DNA of 30,776 nucleotides, taken from positions 1-30,776 of the IMG/VR virus record IMGVR_UViG_3300021519_000743. One strand, 5' to 3'. The notes beneath the pieces are model-generated. The model worked only from the letters and a program-made list of their open reading frames with translations, had not been told where the DNA came from and did no database searches. Source of the DNA: a virus. Of this stretch, positions 1 through 25,055 are shown in pieces; within the stretch, counting starts at the first letter, position 1, and each line of letters starts with the position of its first letter. The position numbers and the translations under genes were made by a program.

Positions 1-439
1 CTCCACCGTAGGCAGTCACGACCAAAGCCGCGCCAGCCGCCGTTGTTGTCACTGAAACAGAGGCATACAACGCAAAAGCCGCAGGAAGAATAAGCGGCTG
101 CGAGTAGGTCAACATGCCGCTATACGAAAGCGCAGTAGCCGACGGCGAAACAACAGTGGTCAGGATTTCGTTAATCAGAAACGCCGTCGTTCCGTCCCAG
201 GCCCAAATGCCAACAATGTTAGCAACAGAGGCAACCGAGATGCCAGTTGATGCCGCTGTAACGCCAATGCTGTCAATGCGTAGACCGTTGGTGCTGACGG
301 GAACAAACGCCGTGATGTTCGCCGCCGCAAGGTTAGCCGTAGCCGTTGGGCCTCGCGTTGTGCAAGCCGTGATGGCTGACATATTCAGCGATTTAATGTA
401 AGGCGTTTGAGCAAAGATTGGTGTTGATGTAACGGCCAT
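1..439 (-). CDS. Phage structural-type protein, C-terminus cut by window edge
   Basis: The ATG at 439-437 overlaps the TAA of the upstream tail-fibre-like gene (TAATG), so the two are translationally coupled. The reading frame stays open to base 1, giving about 146 residues. The protein starts MAVTSTPIFAQTPYIKSL and is rich in Ala, Thr, Val and Gly with no charged clusters, the composition of a beta-rich virion protein. It holds a segment VSTNGLRIDSIGV followed by a WAWDGTTAFLI stretch. I do not recognise a named family. Its place at the end of the virion module suggests a minor virion or fibre-associated protein; this is inferred from context and composition only. Confidence 0.7.
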   Translation of the reverse strand, partial: MAVTSTPIFAQTPYIKSLNMSAITACTTRGPTATANLAAANITAFVPVSTNGLRIDSIGVTAASTGISVASVANIVGIWAWDGTTAFLINEILTTVVSPSATALSYSGMLTYSQPLILPAAFALYASVSVTTTAAGAALVVTAYGG

Positions 440-1776: not shown

Positions 1777-2189
1777 TAAGGCACCGGAATTAAAGTGGGG
1801 TTATTTCCACTTAAGAAGTTAAATCCGTCATTACTCGGGTCTTGCGGATTAACGCCAGTAATGATCGGCATGTCATAATCCGCGACGATAAATAGCATAG
1901 GCTCTGGATTAAGAGCGTAGTTTTCCGGCCTGGGGTTCTTGATCGGAACCGGATCGGGCGGCAGAACCAGCATGGAGTAATACGGGTTCGGAACGTCGTC
2001 GCAAACGCCGCAGACGTACAGCTTCGTACCCACCGGCACGGACCCGCCGCGATACTCCCTTTTCTCAACCAAATGGCCGTGCATCGTCCACATGCCGCAG
2101 CCGTCGCAAACGGCGACGGAGCGAGGGCTTTTGACATCAATATCAATCGGTGCCCTGGCGCGACGGTGTAACGGCGATAACCGGCTCAT
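1776..2189 (-). CDS. Small protein with a zinc-ribbon-like CxxC pair
   Basis: 137 residues. The ATG at 2189 overlaps the stop of the upstream gp4-like gene (ATGA), and its TAA overlaps the fibre gene ATG. Residues about 28-65 hold CDGCGMW ... LYVCGVCDD, two CxxC pairs spaced as in a zinc ribbon. The C-terminal half is Pro/Asn-rich (PDPVPIKNPRPENY). The position between the head-completion gene and the fibre gene suggests a virion or assembly role, but I recognise no family. Zinc binding is inferred from the four cysteines. Confidence 0.7.
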   Translation of the reverse strand: MSRLSPLHRRARAPIDIDVKSPRSVAVCDGCGMWTMHGHLVEKREYRGGSVPVGTKLYVCGVCDDVPNPYYSMLVLPPDPVPIKNPRPENYALNPEPMLFIVADYDMPIITGVNPQDPSNDGFNFLSGNNPTLIPVP

Positions 2190-2878
2190 GCGTACCTACC
2201 ATACAACATGCTCGGCTTGATGACCGTAGGCACCTTTTCGCGGTCTTCAGCAGCCGCCGCTTGGTAGGCTACATCGGCCATACCTTGCAACATACCGGCC
2301 TTCTCGGGTGCCCATTTCACCGCCAAACGGGCAGCCATACCAGCCGCCATAGCATCAAACCAACGCTGGGGCACATCCAGGGTATTAGTGGGGTTCCCTG
2401 GGTCTTGCGTAAAGTTCATGGTGTAATAAAACAGCGTATACGTCGAGATGTCTGGCGTAGGCCAAAAGTACACTGTCGGCGTAATGGTACGCTCAAAGTA
2501 ATATTGTGTCGGCGGGGCTTGCTGCTGTTTGTTGGGGATAGACGCATAATCAGCCCGGCTAATGGGCGAAAGCATAATGTCCGTGTTAATCCCGCCGCTG
2601 GTGGTACGCCGGTAGACCTGGAACATTTCCACGTTCTTGGCGTTCAGCGCGAGGCTCTGCTGGCCCACAGTCAAGGCTGAGTTGTTAAGCGTGACTTCCC
2701 AAAGGTTAACGCCCTTATTGGCCCATTCGGCGCACAGATAGCTAAGGCTGCGAATGGCACTCTGTACGTCATTGGCCGACAGGTCTGAAGCCTCACGGCC
2801 CATACGCTCGTAAGCCTCGACGATTACGCTATCAAGTTCGGTGTTTACGCCAAAGTCATACGTGCCGGTAAGCGTCAT
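2186..2878 (-). CDS. P22 gp4-like head-completion / tail accessory factor
   Basis: 230 residues. The N-terminal part has the pattern of the P22 tail accessory factor gp4 family: a helical stretch ELDSVIVEAYERMGREA, then SANDVQSAIRSLSYLC, LWEVTL and a short beta segment with FWPTPD and LFYYTMNF. In P22-like phages this protein plugs and extends the portal ring and binds the tail needle or hub. Length and order (after capsid, before fibre) fit. The ATG directly follows the TAG of the upstream gene. A general head-tail connector is the alternative label. Confidence 0.75.
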   Translation of the reverse strand: MTLTGTYDFGVNTELDSVIVEAYERMGREASDLSANDVQSAIRSLSYLCAEWANKGVNLWEVTLNNSALTVGQQSLALNAKNVEMFQVYRRTTSGGINTDIMLSPISRADYASIPNKQQQAPPTQYYFERTITPTVYFWPTPDISTYTLFYYTMNFTQDPGNPTNTLDVPQRWFDAMAAGMAARLAVKWAPEKAGMLQGMADVAYQAAAAEDREKVPTVIKPSMLYGRYA

Positions 2879-3138: not shown

Positions 3139-3795
3139 TTAGTACCCCGATTGGTTAAAGTTGACGTTCATTGTGCCAGTAGCTGTAGTGCTGGCAAGGA
3201 AGATGGCGCGATACGCTGTGGCGTTTTCGTTAAAGGTAAGGTTTGTGGAAGTTCCAATAGACGAAAGCCCTGTAGCCGCAATTACCGCTGGTGTCGTGGT
3301 CGTGGAAATCGGGTCAAAAGTATGTTGAATTGAAACCAAAGAAGTTGTGGCTGTATTCATAGTGATTGCCACGGACACAACTACAGGGTTCTGGAAAGTA
3401 TCAACCATAGCCCAGCGGCTGGTGCCGGTAATACCGACACCAACCGTGAACGCGCTAGTTGCAATAGTCCCAACTGAGATTGCTGTGACTTTAAAGAACT
3501 CAGCCACAGTAGTGGCCGTAGCATTGTTTGGCCCAGTAAGCGTTGTAGATACAGCATACCCAGACGTATCAATACCCGAGATAGTAAAGGTCGATGAGCT
3601 AATGTTTCCCGTTGATGTAAGCGTAATCGTCCGTTGAATACCGGGCGCTACAGTCACCGCAAAGGGCGTTACACCAGCATTAAAATTAGATAGCGACCCA
3701 TTAAGAACAAGGGACTGATCTGTGGCCGTAGTCGTTTGCGTAGCGCAAACGCCATTAACCGTTTGCGTGGGGAAGCTGAATATTACTGGGCGCAT
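3139..3795 (-). CDS. Beta-rich virion protein, paralogue of the 4738-5493 gene
   Basis: 218 residues rich in Thr, Ser, Val and Ala, predicted beta-sandwich. The segment with GIDTSGYAVSTTLTGPN, then FFKVTAISVG and FTVGVG, parallels the product of 4738-5493 (GTDAYGAPLTASLTGPT, then FKTVTTASANG and LTIGNTDTYG). The two genes are therefore likely paralogues. The ATG at 3795 has an SD-like GGAG seven bases upstream and lies inside the 3' end of the previous gene, a 41-bp overlap in another frame. The likely role is capsid decoration or a minor virion protein; no family is recognised. Confidence 0.7.
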   Translation of the reverse strand: MRPVIFSFPTQTVNGVCATQTTTATDQSLVLNGSLSNFNAGVTPFAVTVAPGIQRTITLTSTGNISSSTFTISGIDTSGYAVSTTLTGPNNATATTVAEFFKVTAISVGTIATSAFTVGVGITGTSRWAMVDTFQNPVVVSVAITMNTATTSLVSIQHTFDPISTTTTPAVIAATGLSSIGTSTNLTFNENATAYRAIFLASTTATGTMNVNFNQSGY

Positions 3796-4666
3796 TTGCT
3801 ACTCCAAGAGAAGGGGCATGGCCATTTGTTAATGGGAGTGGCCCACCCAACATAGCGTTATATATAGCATGTTCCCCGCCAACACCCATAACCGGCTGCG
3901 GAGCAGCAATCGGCTGAATAACGGACGGACTAGCAACCTGTAGAACTTGGAACTGAGCGGCTAGTTTAGGCGGATTCCGAATACGTTCTTCGTGCGCCAG
4001 GATTTGCTGGGCAGTCATAATCTTACCACCCATGCCGGGCGGGTGGTTCGGGTCTACAAACCAGCCGTAGGGCTGCTGGTGATTATACATATCCATCAGT
4101 GTTGAGTTCTGAGCGACGGCAAAGCGAACGCCGCGCTGGGTACCAATACCCATGTAGAACTCGCAGCACGCACGGCCAGACTCAGCCAGATGTACGTCAG
4201 GATACGAGAAATCGCAGCCAAACAGGCCAATTTCGTTAAAGCCGTCAGCCAAAGCCAGGGCGATGGCATACGAAACACTGGTATTGAAGTAGGTAATGCC
4301 GCCAAACGAAGCCATAACCCGAGCAAACGGGTAAACGACATGGTTCGGATAACGGGGATGCGGCCACGATGTATAGAACGGGGTGTTGTCCTTCAGCGCG
4401 TATTCGCACATATCACGGACAACGGGGTGGCCCAGGTAAGGGTGAACAGGGTCAACGTGGATAATACGGTCGCAACGAATCTGTGCGCCCATATAGTTAA
4501 TGCACCACGTTTCCGCGTTTTGGAGGATTTCAGGGCGGCTTTCCATAAGCTGCGCCTGGAAGAAATCTGAACGGCTTGAACCCATAGCAATAATGTTGAC
4601 CGCCTTACGAGCCGGGGCGTGCATGATCGCTGTAGGTGCTGCTTGAGCTAAATGAGATTCTGTCAC
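3755..4666 (-). CDS. Rossmann-like protein resembling DUF115/Maf-type transferases
   Basis: 303 residues. After a short Ala-rich leader, residues about 23-60 (VNIIAMGSSRSDFF ... ETWCINYMGAQIRCDRIIHVD) read as a Rossmann beta-alpha unit with a GxS turn. The middle has FNTSVSYAIALALADG then IGLFGCDFSYPDVHLAESG, reminiscent of the G.D[LF][AS]Y motif in DUF115 (MAF_flag10) proteins and related GT42-like sialyltransferases. Maf proteins transfer pseudaminic or legionaminic acid to flagellin, so the match is of interest beside this phage's sugar operon. The C-terminal 80 residues are Pro/Ala-rich and low complexity. The call rests on motif reading alone; an uncharacterised phage enzyme of another Rossmann family is possible. 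Confidence 0.5.
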   Translation of the reverse strand: MTESHLAQAAPTAIMHAPARKAVNIIAMGSSRSDFFQAQLMESRPEILQNAETWCINYMGAQIRCDRIIHVDPVHPYLGHPVVRDMCEYALKDNTPFYTSWPHPRYPNHVVYPFARVMASFGGITYFNTSVSYAIALALADGFNEIGLFGCDFSYPDVHLAESGRACCEFYMGIGTQRGVRFAVAQNSTLMDMYNHQQPYGWFVDPNHPPGMGGKIMTAQQILAHEERIRNPPKLAAQFQVLQVASPSVIQPIAAPQPVMGVGGEHAIYNAMLGGPLPLTNGHAPSLGVANAPSNIQLPHANG

Positions 4667-4696
4667 GGGTTACTTCCTTGCCTAGTTACCGTCAAT

Positions 4697-4737: not shown

Positions 4738-5493
4738 TTAAGCAGAATATGGCGTTACGCCATAAGTATTTTCTTTGGTGTCGCTGGCAGCCGCAACCCC
4801 GTCATTCGGGGTAATGAACATCATGTTAATATACCTGACACCATTGGCTAGAGCAGTCGTAGCCAATGCAACCGTTCCGCGAACGTCAGCGGTGGTAGCG
4901 GTGGCGACGCCCGTCGCGGCAAGACCAGCCGTCCAGGTCGCAGGGACGGTCGCGGATTCGCCGTTGATATGGACACCAAGCCCTTTTCCGACGTTAGCAA
5001 TACGGAACGGCAACCCGTAAGTATCCGTGTTGCCAATCGTCAACGCGCCGGTAGCCGCACCGTTCGCAGATGCGGTGGTGACGGTTTTAAAGGCCGAAAG
5101 CGTATTAACAAAAGAACCAGTGGTTCCCAAGGTATTACCAGTCGGGCCGGTGAGGGACGCAGTAAGCGGCGCACCATACGCATCCGTACCTTGGATGGTA
5201 AATGTCACCGTCGCCATGTTGCTGGAAGCCGTAATGGTTACACAACGCGGAACGTCAAAGGTAGCAACGCCGTTGCTAACCAAAACACCCGTGCCGGTTA
5301 GAGTACCCGCAATGGCCGAAGACGCATAAAACACGCCGCTGGCCAGGGAGGTGGACGCCGTTCCAAGCTGGTAAACGTAAACCTGGGTCAGCGGGACGCC
5401 ATAAATTTCGTCCTCAGCATAACCCGTAGGAGGGGTGTAGTTGCGGTTATACGCAGCACGCCCCATTTTGATGCTATCAAAGAAAGTTGTCAT
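4738..5493 (-). CDS. Beta-rich virion protein, probable capsid decoration protein
   Basis: 251 residues. The N-terminus (MGRAAYNRNYTPPTGYAEDE) is followed by long stretches of Thr/Ala/Gly/Val beta strands, then a C-terminal INMMFITPNDG segment. It shares an internal motif set with the 3139-3795 product (see that entry), so the two are likely paralogues. The ATG at 5493 has GAGG eight bases upstream. It is isolated between two intrinsic terminators, which suggests high, separately tuned expression. Decoration or stabilisation of the head is inferred from position right after the major capsid gene; no named family is recognised. Confidence 0.7.
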   Translation of the reverse strand: MTTFFDSIKMGRAAYNRNYTPPTGYAEDEIYGVPLTQVYVYQLGTASTSLASGVFYASSAIAGTLTGTGVLVSNGVATFDVPRCVTITASSNMATVTFTIQGTDAYGAPLTASLTGPTGNTLGTTGSFVNTLSAFKTVTTASANGAATGALTIGNTDTYGLPFRIANVGKGLGVHINGESATVPATWTAGLAATGVATATTADVRGTVALATTALANGVRYINMMFITPNDGVAAASDTKENTYGVTPYSA

Positions 5494-5580: not shown

Positions 5581-6486
5581 TTAGGTAGCGCCAGAGCTAC
5601 CATACGCACCACGCGGGTTAGACCAACCGAACGAATAACGCTCGATAGCCTTAGCCAGCAAGTTGTCGCTGGTAAAGTCAGTGAACACATCAGTCTCAAG
5701 AGCTTCACGGACGTAGTGCTTCAGACCATTCGGCGCGTCGGTCATAACGAACCAGCCGTTGGTGTCGGTCAAAAAGTGGTTGACGCGATAACCCTGCGGC
5801 ACGGCACCAATGTTGTAGATCGCATTGATGTCGTTGTTCGCGGTGCCGGTGCGGAACTGCGAGTGCAGAATACGGTCGGCAGTGAACTGAAGCTGCGGCG
5901 GAACGACCAGCTTGGTCGGCTTCGTCATCGTGATGAGGCCAGCCTGATCGCGGAACTGCGAGATGGTTACGATAGCGTCTTGCAGCGACGATTCGTTCAA
6001 GTCCACCTGCACGCTCGGCGTGTTGGCAAACGTGCCGGTATCAATCGGGTGCGCGGTCGAGAAGAGAGGCTGACCATCGCCACCCGGATACGAGGACGAG
6101 AAGCCGTTGTTCAGAACCGAAGCGCCGTTGACTTCTTTGCTTTGCAGCATCGAGTTACGGAGCGACTGTGCCTGAAGCGGGAACTGCGACTCATACAGGT
6201 TATCCTTCATCGCCTGACGGGTGATGATGAAGCCAACGCTGGTGTAGCGGTGGTAGTAGGTCGAGATAACGCGCTGTCCCATATCCTGGAACTGCGTCGG
6301 CGCACCTTCACCTTTGATCGAGGCGAGGCCGAGCAGCTTCATTTCAACTTCAATTTCAACTGCTTTATCGGAAGTATGGGTCGTGAAGATTTCCGTGTAC
6401 TCAGCAGGGTACATGGGATAATCGCCAAAAACTTCTGCCAAACCGGGGCGGAGAAGTTGCTGGATTGAACTGGTATTAATAGTCAT
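5581..6486 (-). CDS. Major capsid protein, Mu gpT-like HK97 fold
   Basis: 301 residues. The pattern matches Mu gpT-like major head subunits: an N-terminal LLRPGLAEVFGDYP, a central TSVGFIITRQAMKDNLY and the hallmark GDGQPLFSTAHP. A later helix SSLQDAIVTISQFRDQAG precedes KLVVPPQLQFTADRIL, and the C-terminus has VREALETDVFTDFT. The length is close to the family norm. The ATG at 6486 has a strong AGGAG seven bases upstream, and a terminator follows the gene, both expected of a highly expressed capsid gene. No protease gene is seen next to it, so head maturation by cleavage is not evident here. Confidence 0.9.
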   Translation of the reverse strand: MTINTSSIQQLLRPGLAEVFGDYPMYPAEYTEIFTTHTSDKAVEIEVEMKLLGLASIKGEGAPTQFQDMGQRVISTYYHRYTSVGFIITRQAMKDNLYESQFPLQAQSLRNSMLQSKEVNGASVLNNGFSSSYPGGDGQPLFSTAHPIDTGTFANTPSVQVDLNESSLQDAIVTISQFRDQAGLITMTKPTKLVVPPQLQFTADRILHSQFRTGTANNDINAIYNIGAVPQGYRVNHFLTDTNGWFVMTDAPNGLKHYVREALETDVFTDFTSDNLLAKAIERYSFGWSNPRGAYGSSGAT

Positions 6487-15613: not shown

Positions 15614-15770
15614 TTTTAACTTTTTCTTTCTCAACAGTTAAAAAACGTCGGATCGCAAGCTCAACTACTTCCTTCTTGTGCATACAAGCATTATCACAAA
15701 ATTTCTCTAATTCGTCAATTAAGCCCGCAGGAACCCTAGCGTTTAACTGAGTCAGTCTATCTTGAGTCAT
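15585..15770 (-). CDS. Ribbon-helix-helix DNA-binding protein
   Basis: 61 residues. A beta strand LTQLNARVPAGLIDELEKFC followed by HKKEVVELAIRRFLTVEK is the CopG/Arc/MetJ ribbon-helix-helix pattern. Such proteins bind operators as dimers of dimers and usually regulate their own operon. The ATG at 15770 overlaps the epimerase stop (ATGA), so I prefer it over the GTG at 15782. Its gene is near the 3' end of the sugar operon; a second small RHH gene lies at 20142-20294. Which DNA it binds is not visible, but palindromes at 25829-25852 are a candidate. Confidence 0.75.
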   Translation of the reverse strand: MTQDRLTQLNARVPAGLIDELEKFCDNACMHKKEVVELAIRRFLTVEKEKVKNVSNPNNSY

Positions 15771-16720
15771 AAGCGGAGCCACTGGGAAATCTTATCCGCA
15801 ATCTTTGTTGCCGCGCCGCCTTTATAAATTGGTTCCCAATCCTTAACTAACATTAGAGATTTGCCAATGTCGTCAACAGAACTGAATACAGACTTGGCCA
15901 TAGGACGGCCATACTGACGATCACCGATGTTAATTGTCGGGACGCCAACCCACGGCGCTTCAATGATACCAGCCGAAGAATTGCCGATAACCAATGCGGC
16001 GTGCTGCATCTTCTCGACATATTCAAGATGAGGAATTGTCGTAATGACTTTGGCAAAATCACGTTGTTCGCAAAATGAATTAATCAATTCTTTAATTTTT
16101 TCGTTACCAGGATCGTTGTTCACACCAGTAAATAAAATTTCGTAACCATTCAGATACGGTTTATTCAACGCCGCTAGCATATCTTCGCATTGCGACAAGC
16201 CGTAATCGGGTGAACGTGTCTCAGGGTGATACGTAACCAGTATCTCTTTTTTGTCTCGTTTGGCGCTATTGCCCTCAATCCCATCCAGGCCGGGGGCACC
16301 ACAAACGGTGATGGTAAATGGACGAATACCCATCTCTGATAGCTTTATGCCAAAGTCATCTGTAGCAACAAAGTGAATCGTCGCCATATGACTGATGCTA
16401 TTACGGATGGCATCATCAAACGAACCATCAGTTCTCTCCCCTCCGTGGATATGGGCCACGGGTATACCAGCGAACATAGCCGCCATCGACGCCGCCAGCG
16501 TTTCATATCGGTCCCCCAACAGAACTACGAGTTTTGCGTCTTGAGATTTGAACGCGACGGTAAAGAAGATAACAGCCTGGGCAACGGCAACGGCTGGAGA
16601 CATACCATCCGAATTAAAGCGCGTTACAGAACATCCAGGCATCGCCTTGATTACGGATTCAAGCGGGCCGTCCTCGGCGCGGGAGTTGCTGACAACGGTT
16701 ACGCCATTAAAGTCAGTCAT
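15767..16720 (-). CDS. legG: Hydrolysing UDP-sugar 2-epimerase (LegG/NeuC family)
   Basis: 317 residues. Motifs SRAEDG (13-18, as SRAEYG in NeuC), LGDRYE (68-73), HIHGGE (90-95) and the C-terminal GNSSAGIIEAP plus NIGDRQYGR are those of UDP-GlcNAc 2-epimerases that release UDP. In legionaminic acid synthesis LegG converts the UDP-diamino sugar to a free mannose-configured hexose for the synthase. The N-terminal lobe is about 30 residues shorter than in E. coli NeuC. The start at 16720 overlaps the acetyltransferase stop by 8 bp; a frame extension to 16858 is not homologous-looking. Choice of LegG over NeuC rests on the neighbouring dehydratase and aminotransferase. Confidence 0.85.
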   Translation of the reverse strand: MTDFNGVTVVSNSRAEDGPLESVIKAMPGCSVTRFNSDGMSPAVAVAQAVIFFTVAFKSQDAKLVVLLGDRYETLAASMAAMFAGIPVAHIHGGERTDGSFDDAIRNSISHMATIHFVATDDFGIKLSEMGIRPFTITVCGAPGLDGIEGNSAKRDKKEILVTYHPETRSPDYGLSQCEDMLAALNKPYLNGYEILFTGVNNDPGNEKIKELINSFCEQRDFAKVITTIPHLEYVEKMQHAALVIGNSSAGIIEAPWVGVPTINIGDRQYGRPMAKSVFSSVDDIGKSLMLVKDWEPIYKGGAATKIADKISQWLRL

Positions 16721-17261
16721 ATAACTCGTTCCCAATCCAGGTCTCTCCATCTTCCATGTTGTCTGTGACAACCGCACAAGCGCCGATAATGCAGCCGTTA
16801 CCAATCTTCTTGCCGGGGAGAATAACGCTGTTTGCACCGACATGAGTTTCTTCACCAATAATCACGCCGCCAAGAACCGTTGCCCCAGGAGCAATGTGGC
16901 AATGTGGGCCAATGACGCAATCATGTTCAACAATCGCGCCGGTATTAATAATCGTATTGTGCATGACCCTGGCATTTGGATTGATTACCGCCGTCGGCAT
17001 GACTTGGCAGGTTGAATCAACTTCACCCAAAACAACCGCAGTTGGATGGCAAACGCCAACCAATCTGCCGTCATATCTTTCAAATAACTTCCGGCGCGTT
17101 GATAACCCGCTATCGCCAATCTCTGGAACATTGCCAATTCCAATGCAGACGAACAAGTTGTCAGGCAAATCATCAGGCATAAAGAAGTCTGCCTGATCTT
17201 TTAATATGGCCTTAAGCATCCGGCCATGACTGCCGTTGCCAATGATTGCAATTTCTACCAT
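16713..17261 (-). CDS. Sugar O/N-acetyltransferase, NeuD/PglD family (LegH candidate)
   Basis: 182 residues. An N-terminal Rossmann-like strand (MVEIAIIGNGSHGRMLKAIL) is followed by a left-handed beta helix with hexapeptide repeats (INPNARVMHNTIINTGAIVE, then VIGPHCHIAPGATVLGGV and IGEETHVGANSVI). The His in VEHDC matches the catalytic base of PglD-type enzymes. PglD/LegH proteins acetylate the 4-amino group of UDP-sugars made by the dehydratase and aminotransferase. The ATG at 17261 lies in the last codons of the SDR gene, an overlap typical of this operon. O-acetylation of the finished sugar is an alternative. Confidence 0.8.
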   Translation of the reverse strand: MVEIAIIGNGSHGRMLKAILKDQADFFMPDDLPDNLFVCIGIGNVPEIGDSGLSTRRKLFERYDGRLVGVCHPTAVVLGEVDSTCQVMPTAVINPNARVMHNTIINTGAIVEHDCVIGPHCHIAPGATVLGGVIIGEETHVGANSVILPGKKIGNGCIIGACAVVTDNMEDGETWIGNELYD

Positions 17262-17860
17262 GCAGAATATCCCCCATCGACCATTAACACCTGACCCGTG
17301 ATGTACCGCGCCGCATCGCTGCACAGGAACAGCACCGGGCCTACGATGTCGTCTTCGGTGGCCATGCGACCGAGAGGGACTCTATCCTCATACCGTCGTT
17401 TGAACCGATCAGAATGGTCCCTGAAAATCCCGCCGGGACAAACAGCGTTAGAACGGATTGGGGCGAGGTTTGTAGCTTGCCACTTGGTAAGAGCGACCAT
17501 TGCCCCCTTGGACGCCGCGTACCACGCGGGCGTGGGGTCAACTTCGGTGCCTTCGTACATTTTCGGGTCATTGCCTAATACTGCGTAGATGCTGCCGATG
17601 TTGACGATGCAGGAGGCGGCATATTTCGCAAGATGATTATGCCCCTCCCATCCTTTGCATTTTGCATTTGCTATTAGAACATCGTAGTTAATATCTAAAT
17701 CTGGCAATGCTTCGCCAAGATCATCAATATTTAAACTCAAGTCAGCCCCTGTCCCCTTTAGGTCCACCCCCGTCACCACATCCCCCTGAGCCTCAAACGC
17801 CGCACGCAGCGCCCTGCCGAGATGCCCTTCCGAGCCAGTGATTAATACTCTACGCCCCAC
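17255..17860 (-). CDS. Short-chain dehydrogenase/reductase
   Basis: 201 residues. The NAD(P)-binding turn ITGSEGHLGRAL (7-18) and the active-site YAASK are present, and the end has the usual MVDGGYSAW. It is about 40 residues shorter than typical SDRs; the strand around NAG (here IANAKCKG) is kept but a later insertion is lost. The GTG start has GGAGG seven bases upstream inside the previous gene. In Campylobacter legionaminic acid clusters an SDR called PtmA sits among such genes, so a role in sugar precursor reduction is possible; substrate cannot be read from sequence. Confidence 0.75.
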   Translation of the reverse strand: MGRRVLITGSEGHLGRALRAAFEAQGDVVTGVDLKGTGADLSLNIDDLGEALPDLDINYDVLIANAKCKGWEGHNHLAKYAASCIVNIGSIYAVLGNDPKMYEGTEVDPTPAWYAASKGAMVALTKWQATNLAPIRSNAVCPGGIFRDHSDRFKRRYEDRVPLGRMATEDDIVGPVLFLCSDAARYITGQVLMVDGGYSAW

Positions 17861-18758
17861 TTGAAACCCTCCAGATACTGTCCATGCCAGACGGGGTTAC
17901 GACTTCAGTGTCGTAGAACAACTCTTCAGTCAGTCTCTCGCCTGGGCGAAGCCCAGTGACTTCAATCTTGATTTCTTCGTCTGGCATTTTGCCGGACAGA
18001 CGGATCATGTCCCGCGCTAGATCCATGATCTTCACCGGCTGGCCCATATCCAGAATGTACGTGGCTGGCTCACCCGTCGCGGCTTGCAGTACCAACTCAA
18101 CCGCCTCATCAATCGACATGAAGTACCGCTCCATGTCCTCATGCGTGACAGTCAGCGGCCCGCCTTTAATAAGCTGACGCTCAAATAAAGGTACGACCGA
18201 GCCAGAAGAACCCAGGACATTGCCGAAGCGGACGACGGTGCGGTTTTTGCAGATAATTTCCGCAGTGCGTTTTGTCTCGCCCATAAAGCTGCTGGGGTTG
18301 ACGGCCTTGTCGGTTGATATAAGAACCAGACGGTAGACAAAATTCTGGTCACAAGCCGCCGCTACATTGGCAGTGCCAACCACGTTGGTTTTCAAAGCCT
18401 CGCCTCTATTATGCTCAACCAGCGGTACGTGCTTCATCGCAGCGGCATGAAACACAACCTGCTCCAGATTGCTACGCATGAATGTATTCACAGAATCACT
18501 ATCCCGAATGTCGGCATAGACCGCCTTGGCGGTGGGGATTTGCTCAGATATTGAATACAGATTGAACTCGCAGTTATCGACCAGCACCAACTCACGCGGC
18601 TTGTATTGATTGATCTGCCGCGCCAGTTCGGACCCGATAGACCCACCCGCGCCGGTCACAACGATGCGCTTGCCGTCCAGCATCTGGCCCACGGCAGTCC
18701 GGTCCCTGACAACGGAACGGCGCGGAAGCAAATCGTTTAGATTAATCGGGCGAGTCAT
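17850..18758 (-). CDS. legB: UDP-sugar 4,6-dehydratase, soluble CapD/FlaA1 type (LegB candidate)
   Basis: 302 residues. It has TGAGGSIGSE (35-44) for NAD binding, HAAAMKHVPLVE (104-115), STDKAVNP (148-155) and MGETKR (159-164), matching the extended SDR dehydratases that make the 4-keto-6-deoxy sugar from UDP-GlcNAc. The Tyr of classical SDRs is replaced by Met in this family, as seen here. No membrane part is present, unlike PglF/WbpM. The stop overlaps the SDR gene start and the ATG overlaps the synthase stop. The pathway neighbours favour LegB over PseB, because the hydrolysing epimerase belongs to the Leg route. Confidence 0.85.
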   Translation of the reverse strand: MTRPINLNDLLPRRSVVRDRTAVGQMLDGKRIVVTGAGGSIGSELARQINQYKPRELVLVDNCEFNLYSISEQIPTAKAVYADIRDSDSVNTFMRSNLEQVVFHAAAMKHVPLVEHNRGEALKTNVVGTANVAAACDQNFVYRLVLISTDKAVNPSSFMGETKRTAEIICKNRTVVRFGNVLGSSGSVVPLFERQLIKGGPLTVTHEDMERYFMSIDEAVELVLQAATGEPATYILDMGQPVKIMDLARDMIRLSGKMPDEEIKIEVTGLRPGERLTEELFYDTEVVTPSGMDSIWRVSSGA

Positions 18759-19447
18759 ATCTGGCGTATCTCCGCGACCATCTGCTTCAACTCATCTGGC
18801 TCGACGCTGCAAATCTGATCGGGTCCAGCCAGCCTACGGTCTAGGGTGAAGTGCTTCTCAATCACCGCCGCGCCAGAGGCAGCAGCAATGACAGACGCCG
18901 CAATGCCCTGTGTGTGATCTGAGAAGCCTACGTTTAAGAAGAAGTCGTTGAGCCTTGCCATCTTACGAAAATCAACTTTATGAAACGGCGTAGGGTATTC
19001 AGAAATACAATACATCGCCGTGTCCAAATAAGCGGCAGCGGCAAGAAACTCCTTTTCATTCGCCATCCCATTACTAATGATAATCGGGAGCTTCTTAGTT
19101 CTAACGTATTTTACAAAATCTTTGTCTTTGACTCTGCCGGATGAAATCTTCATGCGGCAAACACCCAACTCAACAAGGAAATCCACCCACTCGTTGCTGA
19201 ACGGCGTGGACATAAACTCAATGCCGCACTTGTCAGCCTTCAGCTTCAGCTTGTGGTGATCGTCTTTGGAAAGCTCAAGGCCCTTTAGAAAATCCGCCAT
19301 CTTCTCGTCGTAGCCGAGCTTGTCAGCCGTGAAAGACTGGAACTTAATTATATTAGCGCCAGCGTCTGCCGCAGCCTCCACCATCTTCAGGGCGCGGTCT
19401 AACGAGCCGCAGTGGTTGATCCCGGCCTCGGCAATGATGGTTATCAA
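18755..19447 (-). CDS. legI: Nonulosonic acid synthase, NeuB/LegI family, lacking the SAF domain
   Basis: 230 residues. The TIM-barrel hallmarks are present: IIAEAGINHCGSLDRALKM (4-22), IIKFQSF (33-39), ISSGR (101-105), VGFSDHT (173-179) and EKHFTLDRRLAGPD (197-210). These enzymes condense PEP with the free mannosamine-type sugar to give the nine-carbon acid. Known NeuB/LegI proteins are about 335-350 residues and end with an antifreeze-like SAF domain whose Arg reaches into the partner's active site. Here the protein ends right after the barrel. The start is TTG at 19447, overlapping the CMP-synthetase stop. I see no separate SAF gene nearby. Confidence 0.85.
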   Translation of the reverse strand: MITIIAEAGINHCGSLDRALKMVEAAADAGANIIKFQSFTADKLGYDEKMADFLKGLELSKDDHHKLKLKADKCGIEFMSTPFSNEWVDFLVELGVCRMKISSGRVKDKDFVKYVRTKKLPIIISNGMANEKEFLAAAAYLDTAMYCISEYPTPFHKVDFRKMARLNDFFLNVGFSDHTQGIAASVIAAASGAAVIEKHFTLDRRLAGPDQICSVEPDELKQMVAEIRQI

Positions 19448-20145
19448 GAAACGTACCCCTTGCTATAAGCGTACTCGGCCATCTCAAGATCGTGCATCGA
19501 GTCAATCTCAATGCTCCGCCAGCGGTCCATCAACAACCCGTAGTTCCGCGCCCCACCGTAAATGCTGCCGGTTTTATTAAACATCTCGGCGTCAAATACG
19601 TACAACGCGCCGTTCATAGTCCACTCTTGTTTCAGGTCTTGGCGGCGCAGATTGCGGCCAACGCGGTCCATCTTCACCATGATGGGCGTCACGAAGTCAT
19701 CGTCAGGCTGCTCCGCAACGAACGTCGTGTGCGGTTCGGTGTGCTTCATGCCAACAATCAAATGCGCGTCTTTAGCTTGCTTCATGGTCAGCGCCGTCAC
19801 CAGATGATCTGGCGTTGTAAACGGGGCGCTTGGCTCCAGCAGAACAACCGTGTCGTAATATGTGTCCAACGTAGCCAGCGCATGTTTAATCACATCGGCG
19901 CTTGAAGCCGTGTCCGTTGCCAATTCCGTAGGGCGTGTAAACGGCACTTCAACGTGGTTGAGCCGGGCTTCTTTTTGAATCAGCGGGCACTCGGTAGAGA
20001 TTACCAGCCGGTCGTCTTTGGTGATGACTTGCTTGGCAGCGTTAGCCTTCCAGGCAATCAGCGACATACCGCCAATCTTCCGCAGGTTCTTACCCGGTAC
20101 GCCCTTGGAGCCACCGCGTGCCGTGATGAGATATAGAACGCTCAC
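19444..20145 (-). CDS. legF: CMP-nonulosonic acid cytidylyltransferase (LegF/NeuA family)
   Basis: 233 residues. The N-terminal nucleotide-binding loop LITARGGSKGVPGKNL (6-21) is diagnostic. It is followed by VISTECPLIQKEA, RPTELATDTASSADVIKHAL, VVLLEPSAPF and a C-terminal DRWRSIEIDSMHDLEMAE with the metal-binding Asp. The enzyme activates the free nine-carbon acid with CTP to CMP-sugar, the donor for transferases. The GTG at 20145 overlaps the preceding small gene stop (GTGA), and the TGA overlaps the synthase TTG. The synthase and transferase being adjacent and coupled supports a common pathway. Confidence 0.9.
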   Translation of the reverse strand: MSVLYLITARGGSKGVPGKNLRKIGGMSLIAWKANAAKQVITKDDRLVISTECPLIQKEARLNHVEVPFTRPTELATDTASSADVIKHALATLDTYYDTVVLLEPSAPFTTPDHLVTALTMKQAKDAHLIVGMKHTEPHTTFVAEQPDDDFVTPIMVKMDRVGRNLRRQDLKQEWTMNGALYVFDAEMFNKTGSIYGGARNYGLLMDRWRSIEIDSMHDLEMAEYAYSKGYVS

Positions 20146-20294
20146 TTTTTGTCTTTCTGTAAGTCCAACTTCTCAACGCACGCTTCGTTAATGAACCAGC
20201 TACGTTCATACGGAGTGACAACTTCATCAATACGCTTTAGCAACTCAGGCGTAATGGTGATGTTAATGCGTAGCTTCTTTACGTGTTTAGCCAT
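20142..20294 (-). CDS. Second small ribbon-helix-helix-like protein
   Basis: 50 residues, ATG at 20294-20292, 8 bp overlap with the acetyltransferase gene before it, and a GTGA overlap with the CMP synthetase start. The sequence KKLRINITITPELLKRIDEV then SWFINEACVEKL follows the RHH strand-helix-helix pattern: alternating polar residues in the strand, then two short helices. It is shorter than the 61-residue RHH protein at 15585-15770 and not obviously its copy. Likely role: autoregulation or a small DNA-binding partner. Confidence 0.65.
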   Translation of the reverse strand: MAKHVKKLRINITITPELLKRIDEVVTPYERSWFINEACVEKLDLQKDKK

Positions 20295-20790
20295 GTTTCA
20301 CCTTAAAGATTTCTTTGATGACGGATCGCTTTGTTGGCTTCCAGCTACAAATGGAACGAGTCTTGTGATCCGACTTCTTCCGTTCTTCTAAGAACGGGAA
20401 CACCACAGAGTTGTCCGGTATATCGACGTTTTGCACTACCGTATTGGCGGTGATGAATACGTTGTTGCCGATCTTGGTATTGCCCAGCACCTTCGCGCCA
20501 GGGAACAACACAACGCCCTTACCGATTTCGGGCCGGTTGCCGTCAATGTCAGACCCAACGCCCACGTTCTGGTAAACGCATAGATACTCTCCATACGTAG
20601 CGCGTCCCAAAACCGTGCCAATGGGATGCACCAGCATCACGTTCTTAGGCAGTACGACTTCGTAATAAAGCTCACAGCCGTGTTCGGCGCGGATACGCTG
20701 GTAGTACCTCTCAGCCATCTTAAGATCGTTGTCCTTCCACATATTGTGGGCGACACGGTAAAGCTGAAGGCATTGGTCGTCTAAGCGCAT
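20287..20790 (-). CDS. Hexapeptide acyltransferase, serine-acetyltransferase-like
   Basis: 167 residues. The helical N-terminus (QCLQLYRVAHNMWKDNDLKM) is followed by a left-handed beta helix with TYGEYLCVYQNVGVGSD, IGKGVVLFPGAKVLGNTKIG and NNVFITANTVVQNVDIP. The form is that of serine O-acetyltransferases and of the O-acetyltransferases in polysaccharide loci. It overlaps the aminotransferase stop by 10 bp. It could O-acetylate the sugar. The N-acetylation step is assigned to 16713-17261 because that protein has the PglD-like N-terminal fold; the two roles could be reversed. Confidence 0.75.
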   Translation of the reverse strand: MRLDDQCLQLYRVAHNMWKDNDLKMAERYYQRIRAEHGCELYYEVVLPKNVMLVHPIGTVLGRATYGEYLCVYQNVGVGSDIDGNRPEIGKGVVLFPGAKVLGNTKIGNNVFITANTVVQNVDIPDNSVVFPFLEERKKSDHKTRSICSWKPTKRSVIKEIFKVKHG

Positions 20791-21869
20791 ATCATCTCTA
20801 CTGAGTCTAGAATTGCCGAGACATCATCATCCGTAAGCGTCGGATACACCGGCAAAGACAGCGTGTGAAAACCAAGATCATCAGCCACAGGGCACCTATG
20901 GGCGTGGTTAGCAAAGACCGCCTCGTGGCCAATGTTGGGGCAACCACCCAGCCGCGCAGCCACACCCATGTTCTGCAACTCAATCATCTTACGGTCACGG
21001 TCATTGACGTAAGCCATATACATATACCGGCCATGTTTGTGGTTTGACGGTACTGGGATACCTTCTAGAATATCGTCATATGCAGCGGCAATCTGATTGC
21101 GCCGCGCAACCCAACCGTCCAGCTTTTTCAGTTGAATCCGGCCAATTGCCGACTGCATCTCGGTCATACGCAGGTTGGTGCCAAACTCCTCAACCGTCCA
21201 TTGGAACTGGGTCATGTCCTTAGAACCGACCATCTGGTACCGGCCATGATCGCGGCGTGCGCCCATACTGCGGTGCAGGTTTGGGTTATTGGTAATCACC
21301 ATGCCGCCCTCACCACCGAGGGACATGGTTTTGCCGACGCAAAACGAGAAGGTGCCAATGTCACCAAACGTGCCAACGTGCTGCCCGTTAATCCGCGCCC
21401 CATGAGCATGGGCGCAGTCTTCAATCACGTAGACGCCGTGTAAAGTAGCCCATTTCATAATGGCGTCCATGTCGCACGGCAGACCGGCGTAATGAACGAC
21501 GATCACCGCGACCGTATTTGGCGTCAGTCTTTCTTCCAATGTCTCAACGGTCACATTGAGCGTTTCATCAATGTCGGCCAACACAGGCTCGCACCCAGCC
21601 GTAACGACGGCGCTGGCCGTCGCCATGAACGTGCGGCATGGCACGATCACTTCCGAGCCAGGAATAAGACCAAGCCCGTGCAGCGCAAGTTCAAGGGCCG
21701 TCGTGCCGTTGGTGACAGCAATAGCGTGCTTCGCTCCGGTATATTGAGCAAACTCGGTTTCAAACGCTTGCCCGTTTGGACCCGACCAATAGTTCGTTTT
21801 ACCAGAGCGAAGCACATCAGCTACGGCGCTGATTTCGTCTTCAGAATGATACGGCCATAAAGTCATCAT
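20781..21869 (-). CDS. legC: PLP-dependent sugar aminotransferase, DegT family (LegC candidate)
   Basis: 362 residues. It has VTNGTTALELALHGLG (52-67), IEDCAHAHGA (149-158) with the PLP-contacting Asp, and FSFCVGKTMSLGGEGGM (174-190) where K180 is the Schiff-base lysine. DegT/StrS enzymes aminate 4-keto sugars; in this operon the substrate would be the dehydratase product, giving the 4-amino sugar. Two ATGs at 21869 and 21866 follow GAGG; the first overlaps the HisH-like stop (ATGA). A frame extension to a TTG at 21884 is less likely. Confidence 0.85.
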   Translation of the reverse strand: MMTLWPYHSEDEISAVADVLRSGKTNYWSGPNGQAFETEFAQYTGAKHAIAVTNGTTALELALHGLGLIPGSEVIVPCRTFMATASAVVTAGCEPVLADIDETLNVTVETLEERLTPNTVAVIVVHYAGLPCDMDAIMKWATLHGVYVIEDCAHAHGARINGQHVGTFGDIGTFSFCVGKTMSLGGEGGMVITNNPNLHRSMGARRDHGRYQMVGSKDMTQFQWTVEEFGTNLRMTEMQSAIGRIQLKKLDGWVARRNQIAAAYDDILEGIPVPSNHKHGRYMYMAYVNDRDRKMIELQNMGVAARLGGCPNIGHEAVFANHAHRCPVADDLGFHTLSLPVYPTLTDDDVSAILDSVEMICA

Positions 21870-22432
21870 GCCCTCACTAACCAAGTTGTTAAAAAATCGC
21901 GCCCGTATTGTTGGCTTTTCTCAGGATGAAATTGCACACCCATCACATTGTCCCGGCCAACGATAGAAACCAATTCGTTCGGGCCGTAGTGAGTTGTCGC
22001 CCAAATGTCGTCTGCGTTCTTGGGAACAAAATGGTAGCTGTGCGTAAAGTATGCAAAACCTAATGGCACATTAATGTTGCGCGGGGTCACATCATTCCAA
22101 CCACAGTGAGGAACTCGCTCCGAAGTAATCGGCACAACATCTCCCTCGATCCAATTTAACCCGTTGGTCGTTCCGCCCTCGATGCCGGTGGTAGCCATGA
22201 TCTGCATACCAATGCAGATCCCCAAGATCGGAACACCACGGCCCTTAGCAAAACACAGCCCGTTTACCAATATGTTTATATCCGCCATCGCTTGAGCAAA
22301 CGAGCCTACGCCAGGAAGAACGATGCGGTCTGCATTGGCAATAATGTCCTCGTCTTTGCTAACAACGGCATTAGGTATGGCCTTAACAACCGACCAGATA
22401 TTACCGCTGCCGTAGTCAACAATAACGGTCAC
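21866..22432 (-). CDS. hisH-like: HisH-like glutamine amidotransferase subunit
   Basis: 188 residues from a GTG at 22432 that overlaps the stop of a small zinc-ribbon gene (GTGA) and has AAGGAAG upstream. It has the class I triad: GICIGMQ with C73, and VQFHPEKS with His and Glu. Glutaminases of this class make ammonia for a partner. In histidine synthesis the partner is HisF; in O-antigen and flagellin sugar loci HisH2/HisF2 partner a PP-loop amidotransferase (WbpG/PseA) to put an amidino group on a sugar. The presence of all three genes here fits the second role, since no other histidine gene is present. Confidence 0.85.
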   Translation of the reverse strand: MTVIVDYGSGNIWSVVKAIPNAVVSKDEDIIANADRIVLPGVGSFAQAMADINILVNGLCFAKGRGVPILGICIGMQIMATTGIEGGTTNGLNWIEGDVVPITSERVPHCGWNDVTPRNINVPLGFAYFTHSYHFVPKNADDIWATTHYGPNELVSIVGRDNVMGVQFHPEKSQQYGRDFLTTWLVRA

Positions 22433-22569
22433 TTTACTTCCTTCACATAAAACGCGCCGCAGTACGGACAGCCACGGCCAGCAGACCCAGCCCACTCGCG
22501 CCCACAGCCCAAGCCCCACCGGACATTCTCAGGGTGTTCGCGCAGACAGAGGAACTTGGCGGGGGTCAT
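22429..22569 (-). CDS. 46-residue zinc-ribbon-like protein
   Basis: The ATG at 22569 overlaps the preceding stop (ATGA) and the TGA overlaps the HisH-like GTG. The sequence starts MTPAKFLCLREHPENV and ends GRGCPYCGAFYVKEVK. The cysteines at positions 8, 22, 34 and 37 form a Cys ... GCG ... CPYCG set like a treble-clef or zinc ribbon. Small zinc ribbons occur in tRNA and sugar modification systems, but the role here is unknown. Its exact coupling to both neighbours makes it a likely real gene. Confidence 0.65.
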   Translation of the reverse strand: MTPAKFLCLREHPENVRWGLGCGREWAGSAGRGCPYCGAFYVKEVK

Positions 22570-22733
22570 TTCAATTTCTCTAATTCCGAAATGGCACGGC
22601 GCAATGACTCTAACTCAGAGCCAGCGTCCATGACCCCATGAGCGTCACGGTTTTCAAGGAACATTGCCGCCATGCCCCACGCCGATTCTTCGCGCTTGCG
22701 GAGGGAGTCTAGTAGGTCGTCAATTGGGGTCAT
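22566..22733 (-). CDS. 55-residue helical protein of unknown function
   Basis: The ATG at 22733 overlaps the HisF-like stop (ATGA); its TGA overlaps the next ATG. It starts MTPIDDLLDSLRKREE, has a mid-segment MAAMFLENRDAH and ends LRRAISELEKLK, and is likely all alpha-helical. Gene order in the operon is kept tight around it, suggesting translation. No family or role can be named; its MTP start is shared with two nearby genes. Confidence 0.6.
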   Translation of the reverse strand: MTPIDDLLDSLRKREESAWGMAAMFLENRDAHGVMDAGSELESLRRAISELEKLK

Positions 22734-23383
22734 ACATCCCTCACATTACAGCCCTCGGATACGAGCCAAGAGCGTAGCTTGATTGGTGATTTGTCGCTGA
22801 AGAAGAACATGGAGCTAATGGCAACGCCGTCAGCGTTGTTGGCGAAGGCTTGCTTCACATGATCCAGTTTGCCGCAGCCTCCGGCAATCACAACCGGCAC
22901 ATCCCATCTGCGTTTCAATACGTCCAAGTCAAACCCCTTGCCTATCCCGTCGCGGTCAATGTCCGTCAGTATAACTTCACCCGCGCAGTCAGGCACATCT
23001 TCTACACACAAGGTGTGATAGTCAATAGGCCAGACCACCGCTTGTCGTCCGTATTTATCAGCGACCTGTCTGGCCAGGGGGGGGTCCTTGATGACCACTT
23101 TATCAACGCCGCAGTCCCTGATTAGCTCGTCCACCTGGGCCATGGAATGAATCGACCCAGCCACGGTAACGGGGGTGAACACATAGGCGGTCACATCCCG
23201 TATCATGGCTGGGTCAATTACGCCCAAGTCGCAGAAGTACATCTCATCGACACGTTGGTCTTCATATGTACGCGCCGTTGACGCGGGATTACCGGCCAGT
23301 CGTTTGGCGTTAGTGAACTGCTTGTACTTAACGAGCTTGCCGTCCTCGATTAGAAACTTCGCAATGATCCGGCGTTTCAGCAC
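22730..23383 (-). CDS. hisF-like: HisF-like cyclase subunit without the catalytic Asp11
   Basis: 217 residues. It starts MLKRRIIAKFLIEDGKLVK, where HisF has CLDVKDG: the position of the catalytic Asp11 is Leu here. Asp130 is kept in PIDYH (122). Phosphate-binding loops remain recognisable: VAGSIH (75-80), LTDIDRDG and VIAGGCG. HisF2-type proteins in amidinated-sugar loci commonly lose Asp11 because they pass ammonia from HisH to a separate enzyme rather than build imidazole. The GTG at 23383 overlaps the TAG of the gene before it by one base. Confidence 0.8.
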   Translation of the reverse strand: MLKRRIIAKFLIEDGKLVKYKQFTNAKRLAGNPASTARTYEDQRVDEMYFCDLGVIDPAMIRDVTAYVFTPVTVAGSIHSMAQVDELIRDCGVDKVVIKDPPLARQVADKYGRQAVVWPIDYHTLCVEDVPDCAGEVILTDIDRDGIGKGFDLDVLKRRWDVPVVIAGGCGKLDHVKQAFANNADGVAISSMFFFSDKSPIKLRSWLVSEGCNVRDV

Positions 23384-23922
23384 TACGGCGTCGGGCCACC
23401 AACCGGGTCAACCGCACCAGCCGGTGATTGGGTCATCACCTCAGTACCGGCAGCAACCGCAACGCCAGTCGGGCTTTCGTTCATCGGGCCGTGGCAGTCA
23501 GCCAGCTTGGTGCCGTTGACCTTCTTAGAACGAAGCGTGCAAGGGAAGCTGAACATGTTGCTCATGCCGCCACCGGGCGCGGTGGTCGTCGTGAACTTGC
23601 GAAACGCCGCCAAGGTGTTCGCCCAAGTCGGCGCTTGCGGGAAGCTATCGCGGGGCTGGAACAGGCTCCAGACTTGGTTCTTGCCGGGGGCGGCGCAGGA
23701 GTGGTTCATCAAGTCCATGTCGGCCAAAGCCGGGCCGCGCAGAACCGGACACACAGCAACGCCCAATGGGAACACCTTACCGTTGACGGTGACGGTCTTG
23801 CCGGGGACAGGGGTTGTGGGGCTGGCCGCGCACAAAGCGAACTCGCCTGTGCAGACCTGGACTGTCAGGGCGTGGGCGGGGGCCGTAATCGTCAGCGCCG
23901 CAGCGATCAGTAGTTTTTTCAT
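23383..23922 (-). CDS. Secreted/periplasmic cysteine-containing protein, unknown
   Basis: 179 residues from the ATG at 23922, which overlaps the amidotransferase stop (ATGA). The N-terminus MKKLLIAAALTITAPAHA is a textbook signal peptide with an AHA cleavage site. The mature part has at least six cysteines (VQVCTGEFALCAAS, VAVCPVL, NHSCAAPG, FPCTLRS, ADCHGPM), enough for disulfides, and is Pro/Thr-rich. It could be a periplasmic or virion-surface protein. It interrupts the amidotransferase trio, between the PP-loop gene and the HisF-like gene. I know no family for it. Confidence 0.7.
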   Translation of the reverse strand: MKKLLIAAALTITAPAHALTVQVCTGEFALCAASPTTPVPGKTVTVNGKVFPLGVAVCPVLRGPALADMDLMNHSCAAPGKNQVWSLFQPRDSFPQAPTWANTLAAFRKFTTTTAPGGGMSNMFSFPCTLRSKKVNGTKLADCHGPMNESPTGVAVAAGTEVMTQSPAGAVDPVGGPTP

Positions 23923-25055
23923 ATCCAATCTTTCATGTCTGGAAGTTCTGAGCCAGCCACAATGGCTGACCCATCAAATTCCCACGGATCAACCACATGG
24001 CTCAAGGCCATCTCGTAAAATTCATCCCGCGTAATCCCAACCGTCTGTAGGAACCATCCCAGGCTGGCGGGTTCTTTGCCGTCGTATTGCTGGGCTAAAG
24101 CGGCCCCAGTCGCCCGATCCATACGGCCATGCCGTATCTCAATGTTGGCCAGATGGTTGGTCCGACCAAACCCGCGCTTGATGTACTTCAGCCAATCGCG
24201 CACACCCTGGAACTGGCACTCGATCTTCTCGTAATCAAACTGCGGCGGGATGCCCTCAACCTCATCACCCTCCCAGCCAAAATGGTCCTTAATCAGCGCC
24301 ACTTGATTGCGGGTGTCCCACCGCACGTAGTCTCCCAGACAGATTGACTGCACATTCAATTTGTCCAACGCGGCCTTGGGCGGATATGCGTGCCAATGCA
24401 AATCGCGCCGGTCGATGCTGGGGTTCGCGTCCTTAATGAACTCCCACATATCGTCAGCCGTCATGCCGAGATTCATGGCGCGGTTAAAGCGCACCTCATC
24501 GACATTCTCTTTCGCTGTCGGGTCGAGCCAGGACTGGTACTCCTTCAGTGACTCACCCCAGAATATAAGCGGTGTGTTGAACTTAAGCGCCATGTGCATG
24601 GGGAACGAGTAGACTCCCGTATGACAGTGCCAGCACGAATCGCCCTTGCGGGAAAGTGCCTCAAGCATAGTGGCCTGGACGACCTTCCAGTTCGGTTTGA
24701 AGTCCAAGACCTCAACGCCCAACTGCTTGAACACTCGCGCATTGTTTCGCTCCAACTGTGGCCGAGTTCCCCAGTGGTTATAGCGCACAACCAAAGGCCG
24801 CAACTGTAGCTGCGTCACCACATACCAAAGCTGGTACGTCGAGTCCTTACCGCCGCTAAAGGGCACGATGCAATCGTACTGGCCGTTGTGTTGACGAGCC
24901 TGGGTGATGATGGAGTGTAACTCCATCTTGCGTTCGTTCCAGTCCACATCGTTCAGCTTATGGTCTACCTGAACGCATACGCTACACGCACCAGCCGTGT
25001 TGAATGAGATGGTGTCGGCGGTTTCGGTGTTCAGACATTTAGAACAGGACTTCAT
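23919..25055 (-). CDS. pseA-like: N-acetyl sugar amidotransferase (WbpG/PseA-like PP-loop enzyme)
   Basis: 378 residues. A zinc-knuckle-like N-terminus (Cys4, Cys7, Cys24, Cys27) precedes the PP-loop motif SGGKDST (67-73), where ATP is bound, then RPLVVRYNHWGT and FIKDANPSIDRRDLHW. The protein is of the class used with HisH2/HisF2 to turn an N-acetyl group of a sugar into acetamidino, as in WbpG and PseA. The ATG at 25055 overlaps the preceding small gene stop. With its partners at 21866-22432 and 22730-23383 it implies an amidinated final sugar. Confidence 0.85.
   Translation of the reverse strand: MKSCSKCLNTETADTISFNTAGACSVCVQVDHKLNDVDWNERKMELHSIITQARQHNGQYDCIVPFSGGKDSTYQLWYVVTQLQLRPLVVRYNHWGTRPQLERNNARVFKQLGVEVLDFKPNWKVVQATMLEALSRKGDSCWHCHTGVYSFPMHMALKFNTPLIFWGESLKEYQSWLDPTAKENVDEVRFNRAMNLGMTADDMWEFIKDANPSIDRRDLHWHAYPPKAALDKLNVQSICLGDYVRWDTRNQVALIKDHFGWEGDEVEGIPPQFDYEKIECQFQGVRDWLKYIKRGFGRTNHLANIEIRHGRMDRATGAALAQQYDGKEPASLGWFLQTVGITRDEFYEMALSHVVDPWEFDGSAIVAGSELPDMKDWI

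Follow-up and report, generated by a model that had tools for sequence, protein, structure and literature searches.

Using CMP-Pse/Leg, Maf enzymes modify Ser/Thr residues of a structural protein capable of self-assembly (PMC11339370, PMC9298399). In C. jejuni, maf4 co-occurs with CMP-Leg genes (PMC9298399), and one Maf enzyme accepts Kdo and Neu5Ac (PMC11339370). These proteins are built of three domains: an N-terminal Rossmann-like domain, a central MAF_flag10 domain (PF01973) and a C-terminal helical domain (PMC11339370). Among phages, mycobacteriophages have glycosyltransferases of their own, and a phage-encoded enzyme was proposed to act on capsid protein (PMC11256854). The system described below likewise involves a phage-encoded transferase with a capsid protein among the proposed targets, whereas the abstract of the mycobacteriophage report mentions no nonulosonate pathway (PMC11256854). 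In the open-access literature, we encountered no description of a phage nonulosonate transferase accompanied by its own synthesis pathway, nor of a family of such enzymes.

We analyzed the tailed phage record IMGVR_UViG_3300021519_000743 of IMG/VR, hereafter the window, meaning the whole stretch of 30,776 bases (table 1). An earlier note had proposed that a gene of its virion module is a DUF115/Maf-like transferase with a Rossmann-like N-terminus, and both the gene and this feature were recovered: the 303-aa reading frame is encoded on the minus strand, begins with GTG and is preceded by a good ribosome binding site, and its N-terminus (KAVNIIAMGSSRSDF) is Rossmann-like in sequence and forms a strand-loop-helix in the AlphaFold model. 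Close relatives are encoded at 25 IMG/VR loci, among which residues 20–235 are almost invariant and the tail differs. This near invariance, together with a dN/dS of 0.02–0.04 (where synonymous sites are unsaturated), indicates that the reading frame is a true gene. Its described position between two related virion genes also stands. The flanking 218-aa and 251-aa proteins are 38% alike over 74 aa (E 1.6e-7, from a comparison of six proteins), and portal, terminase, capsid and SU10-type adaptor genes surround the gene on the same strand. The first 41 bp of the 218-aa gene are also the last of the transferase gene, homologues of the 218-aa protein occupy the same place in the contigs G009 and G013, and its Thr/Ser content ranks at the 99th percentile among ORFs of related loci. 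Thr-rich beta proteins are nevertheless frequent in phages, so the composition of the two neighbors is weak evidence that they are acceptors.

Table 1. Positions of the candidate transferase gene, its virion-module neighbors and the sugar operon in the window
Feature	Positions	Strand	Evidence
SU10-type head-tail adaptor	2186..2878	-	PF24175 E 4.9e-11
Thr-rich beta-type virion protein, 218 aa, S+T 32%, candidate acceptor	3139..3795	-	composition; homologues elsewhere
Candidate nonulosonate transferase, GT42/Maf-like, 303 aa, GTG start	3755..4666	-	dN/dS, alignments, AlphaFold model, fold matches
Variable C-terminal tail, residues 233-303	3755..3970	-	alignment; modelled part past residue 231 pLDDT <50
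Catalytic-domain core, residues 20-212, kept across the phage family	4031..4609	-	alignments A1/A4; model
GCDFSYPDVH, residues 150-159	4190..4219	-	read in translation; profile alignment
Ribosome binding site AAGGAAG, 5' of the GTG start	4673..4679	-	read directly
Thr-rich beta-type virion protein, 251 aa, S+T 24%, candidate acceptor	4738..5493	-	related to 218-aa protein
Mu gpT-like major capsid protein, landmark of the virion module	5581..6486	-	PF10124 E 2.2e-10; phrog_371 E 8.4e-16
Hydrolysing UDP-sugar 2-epimerase, NeuC/LegG-type	15767..16858	-	TIGR03568 above cut-off, E 1.4e-70
NeuD-type acyltransferase + short-chain dehydrogenase	16713..17860	-	TIGR03570 E 5e-40 (below cut-off); SDR matches
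UDP-GlcNAc 4,6-dehydratase-like (Polysacc_synt_2)	17850..18758	-	PF02719 E 3.1e-97
NeuB-type nonulosonate synthase, 230 aa, catalytic domain only	18755..19447	-	PF03102 E 2.1e-64; TIGR03569
CMP-nonulosonate synthetase (PseF/NeuA-like), source of the proposed donor	19444..20145	-	PF02348 E 9.3e-15; TIGR03584 E 1.6e-31
Hexapeptide acyltransferase + DegT aminotransferase	20287..21884	-	PF00132; PF01041 E 2.9e-100
HisH, HisF-like, WbuX N-acetyl-sugar amidotransferase (sugar amidination)	21866..25055	-	TIGR01855, TIGR03572, TIGR03573

Two scans of IMG/VR with degenerate motifs, together with iterated HMM searches of the retrieved loci, assembled a wider phage family of about 80 distinct members. 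Those outside the window's subfamily are 17–31% identical to the window protein. The subfamily sits on a long branch of the family tree (1.76 changes per column), so that statements made for the family reach the window protein by descent. The family is unnamed in Pfam, PHROGs and NCBIfam, and UniProt labels its proteins "uncharacterized" or "MptE-like". Single-sequence searches of the window protein were uninformative (PDB phmmer, PHROGs, NCBIfam). In 50,697 phage records, tblastn of the family gave one significant phage, Microcystis phage Mvi-Yong1342-1, which is the only cultured relative found (consensus core, E 5e-8). Its member adjoins terminase genes (PP496355.1 34781-35584; L027:4650-5453), and its annotation as a "type 11 methyltransferase" is unsupported by Pfam. 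Bacterial genomes searched for related loci gave no relative, and the bacterial motif matches were rejected as mostly due to chance. Several genomes carry two divergent copies of the transferase (G018, G023, G030, G034 and G036; L107, L109, L128 and L123), often both within or near the head gene cluster, which may mean two acceptors or two sugars. In a 64-kb phage (G016), the transferase (L050:7750-9435, plus strand) contains an intein-like insert of about 300 aa in the conserved region after GVDL..DEY; its match to the Pfam intein splicing domain falls below the cut-off (E 0.0056).

We built a profile (A4) from 55 diverse phage members and searched it against all PDB sequences. GT42 sialyltransferases accounted for nine of the ten matches, including the best ones, with CstII (2drj) first (E 4.5e-5); among the sequence signals, the strongest is homology to GT42, represented by CstI and CstII of Campylobacter (PF06002). 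With the narrow profile of the window's own subfamily, GT42 was not significant (CstI E 2.8). PF06002 (CST-I) matched two of the 55 family members (best E 0.11) and not the window protein, for which strict GT42 membership was consequently rejected. Identity to GT42 proteins is about 15–20%.

The predicted structure places the protein in the same superfamily. An AlphaFold run on the close relatives alone (A1) reached a pLDDT of 37 and its model was discarded; with the A4 alignment, mean pLDDT was 74.6 over residues 15–246. The best fold match of this model by VIA-align was Maf 5mu5 (Z 12.1, rmsd 3.1, 161 residues), with residues 3–177 superposing on 269–498 of the 5mu5 chain, that is, on the central MAF_flag10 domain. 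It was followed by archaeal MptE 8sd5 (Z 11.3), thiamin pyrophosphokinase (Z 10.7), CstI 2p56 (Z 10.4, rmsd 3.5, 155 aligned residues) and CstII 1ro7 (Z 10.1). SteA also falls within this group of Z 10.1–11.3, and the next, unrelated fold drops to 6.2. The top Foldseek match was CstII 1ro7 (E 2.8e-4). We consider it nearly certain that the 303-aa protein has the Maf/GT42/MptE fold. The earlier note had named a predicted fold unlike GT-A/GT42/DUF115 as grounds for refuting its proposal, and the model does not show such a fold. The earlier proposal of a Maf/DUF115-like transferase thus holds for the fold and fails for strict membership. The window protein scores 15–16.4 bits against PF01973, below the cut-off of 34.6 (E 0.014–0.022; 11 of the 55 family members match weakly, best E 0.0021), and it has a single domain of 303 aa, whereas Maf proteins have three and measure mostly 800–900 aa in the proteobacterial set that we compared. 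Because of the missed cut-off and the different architecture, we did not file it under Maf or PF01973 (DUF115). Its surroundings differ as well, since in the lineages looked at the gene lies in a virion neighborhood rather than a flagellar locus, no flagellin is present and the presumed acceptors are virion proteins.

As modelled, the fold does not separate the archaeal 6-hydroxymethylpterin diphosphokinase MptE from Maf and GT42. A protein of the GT42/MptE/thiamin-pyrophosphokinase fold might instead carry out other chemistry, such as nucleotide- or pterin-dependent diphosphotransfer or DNA modification. MptE and thiamin pyrophosphokinase indeed score as high as GT42, the only weak match in Pfam is MptE-like (E 0.014–0.022), some UniProt phage proteins of the same fold are labelled MptE-like, and the gene of the Microcystis phage abuts terminase genes. 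However, profile comparison prefers Maf (39) and GT42 (32) over archaeal MptE, the weakest of the three (21; E-values uncalibrated), and no pterin genes were noticed near the 303-aa gene. The TDLDG and HAHGDN motifs of the archaeal sequences are missing from the window protein, which disfavors an MptE identity. The genomic association described below is with CMP-nonulosonate synthesis. On all these grounds, we regard other chemistry as improbable.

The motif GCDFSYPDVH, which the earlier note had likened to a signature of Maf proteins, is present at residues 150–159. It is not a chance resemblance, because it sits in the sole region with a weak match to PF01973 (the former DUF115; E 0.022), in the same place as the Maf motif. 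In the family profile alignment, D152 and F153 align with the G-I-D-F of CstII, and the model exceeds a pLDDT of 90 around the motif. The resemblance to GT42 extends over the TS...GxDF region. The Asn that the family conserves behind the second strand, the Ser in FTSS/NTSV and the Asp-Phe of GxDF coincide in this alignment with segments by which CstII binds CMP-sialate. H159 lies at the start of helix 158–177 in the model, and the spacing H159-x9-E169-F170 matches the H-x9-E of a GT42 ORF found in L440. This suggests H159 as a candidate general base, possibly equivalent to the catalytic His of GT42 enzymes (His188 in CstII). The segment from GxDF to this His is much shorter in the window protein than in GT42. 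The profile alignment stops before H159, most members of the phage family have no His there, and only the window's subfamily was seen to carry one at the position of the GT42 general base. The active-site region as a whole is among the most conserved parts of the protein.

The proposed donor would come from the sugar operon of the window, whose existence the gene-by-gene family matches of table 1 confirm. As the earlier note had stated, this operon has no obvious transferase: none was found among the Pfam/TIGR family matches of the genes at 15767-25055. A hydrolysing NeuC-type epimerase is the mark of the legionaminic-type rather than the pseudaminic route, and its presence in the operon points to a sugar of the legionaminic type; together with the amidination genes, the product is probably an amidinated legionaminic-type sugar. 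WbuX and HisF amidination genes were seen in at least three distinct phage lineages (the window, L480 of G024 and L486 of G036), with HisH joining them in the window and in G036. The NeuB of the window, at about 230 aa, lacks the SAF/antifreeze-like domain found at the C-terminus of cellular NeuB, as do its relatives in L081-L086. Short and very different NeuB proteins also occur in several other phage lineages.

We then compared contigs carrying a family member with IMG/VR contigs drawn by an arbitrary 15-mer, searching both for NeuB (PF03102) and the CMP-sugar synthetase (PF02348). Two contigs (G045 and G046) hold the gene and were therefore counted with the gene-bearing contigs rather than the controls. 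Among member contigs of at least 45 kb, 11 of 14 encode NeuB and 12 of 14 the synthetase, against 0 of 17 random contigs for each (Fisher P = 4e-6 and 6e-7, respectively; 1e-4 and 2e-5 once lineages were collapsed by eye). When random contigs of at least 20 kb were considered, none of the 41 had NeuB or the synthetase, and none had the transferase family. In INPHARED, a NeuB similar to that of the window was found in only two of 50,697 phage records. The NeuB proteins of different lineages are only about 25–32% alike to the window's NeuB and the NeuB-positive members are dispersed over the family tree, which makes a single ancestral hitch-hiking event unlikely. The link to the sugar pathway, originally drawn from one genome, thus extends over about ten phage lineages. 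In some of them the genes are adjacent: the order is NeuB, transferase, CMP-synthetase in G016; both transferase copies lie between CMP-synthetase and NeuB in G036; and in G030 the transferase is followed by the CMP-synthetase close to the contig end. WbuX/HisF-type genes are also encoded in G024 and G036.

The association has exceptions. In the relative G013, a gene 67% identical occupies the same position, yet the 62.7 kb of that contig lack all eleven sugar genes known from the window operon, and neither NeuB nor CMP-synthetase was found in G034 or in Microcystis phage Mvi-Yong1342-1. These three phages might use a host CMP-sugar, or else the protein has a different role there. Absences in short contigs say little, because such contigs are fragments. 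A protein derived from a transferase that has lost its activity and now serves in structure or assembly would account for the retention of the gene in G013 and for its place among virion genes. Such a loss is hard to reconcile with the high conservation of the active-site region, the strong purifying selection and the association with donor-pathway genes in different lineages. In addition, the intein-like insert of G016 interrupts exactly the conserved region, and inteins habitually sit in active enzymes. We therefore give little credence to an inactive structural protein.

Neighboring genes were clustered over 25 family loci and typed with PHROGs. One group of lineages presents an HK97-type head cluster with portal, maturation protease, major head protein, transferase, head-tail adaptor and connector. 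In another group, the transferase adjoins small S/T-rich proteins, one of which matches the virion structural family phrog_3758 (E 4e-4), and in the window's group the two Thr-rich proteins flank it. This late, virion-module position in unrelated phages favors a particle protein as acceptor. An active nonulosonate transferase could alternatively modify a host surface glycan (lipopolysaccharide or capsule), for example blocking superinfection. Known GT42 acceptors are glycans, and the names of the PDB matches indicate that the characterised enzymes act on lipooligosaccharide; the donor pathway would be the same, and the phage enzyme would be cytoplasmic like GT42 enzymes. Unlike the GT42 genes, however, the phage gene lies within the head/virion cluster in many unrelated lineages, and not in a lysogenic or early region. 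Moreover, in G003, a 61.8-kb relative that encodes the complete pathway, we detected neither a flippase nor a polymerase nor a partner glycosyltransferase, and its 41 further ORFs contain no other glycosyltransferase family. We judge a host-glycan acceptor unlikely, although less so than either other chemistry or lost activity. The same relative carries, with its module, genes resembling PAPS reductase (phrog_424, E 5.7e-56) and ferredoxin (L489-L491).

Our preferred reading is that the enzyme is a CMP-nonulosonate transferase acting most likely on a virion protein, to which, as a whole, we assign a probability of about 0.62, with both activity and acceptor inferred. The protein would act in the cytoplasm as a glycosyltransferase consisting of one GT42/Maf-fold domain, and its donor, supplied by the operon of the phage itself, would be a CMP-activated nonulosonic acid, probably amidinated and of legionaminic type. 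Transfer would take place during late gene expression onto a particle protein, the most likely targets being hydroxyls of the adjacent Thr/Ser-rich structural proteins. The parts of this reading differ in strength. Use of CMP-nonulosonate as donor is strongly indicated by the fold and by the pathway alongside, and action on a virion protein appears probable, while the choice of the two flanking proteins in particular is tentative. The enzyme probably works like Maf, transferring nonulosonate from its CMP form to Ser/Thr residues of a structural protein before that protein self-assembles. By slightly better than even odds, the case is general: tailed phages of a widespread, so far unannotated class, spanning about ten unrelated lineages, would make their own CMP-nonulosonate and sialylate their own capsid or decoration proteins through a GT42/Maf-like enzyme of the head cluster.

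If true, this would constitute a viral counterpart of flagellin glycosylation. Nonulosonic acids on the particle would alter its surface charge, its recognition by hosts and antibodies, and its stability. The reading would also provide a function for an unnamed phage protein family and a reason for the long and costly sugar operons of these phages, and such small single-domain enzymes could serve as O-sialylation tools. Elsewhere in the window, positions 439-1776 (minus strand) encode a tail-fibre-like protein made of near-identical repeat modules, whose repeat unit contains GGTGxTYxGGP and GYGGTSATTA in several copies.
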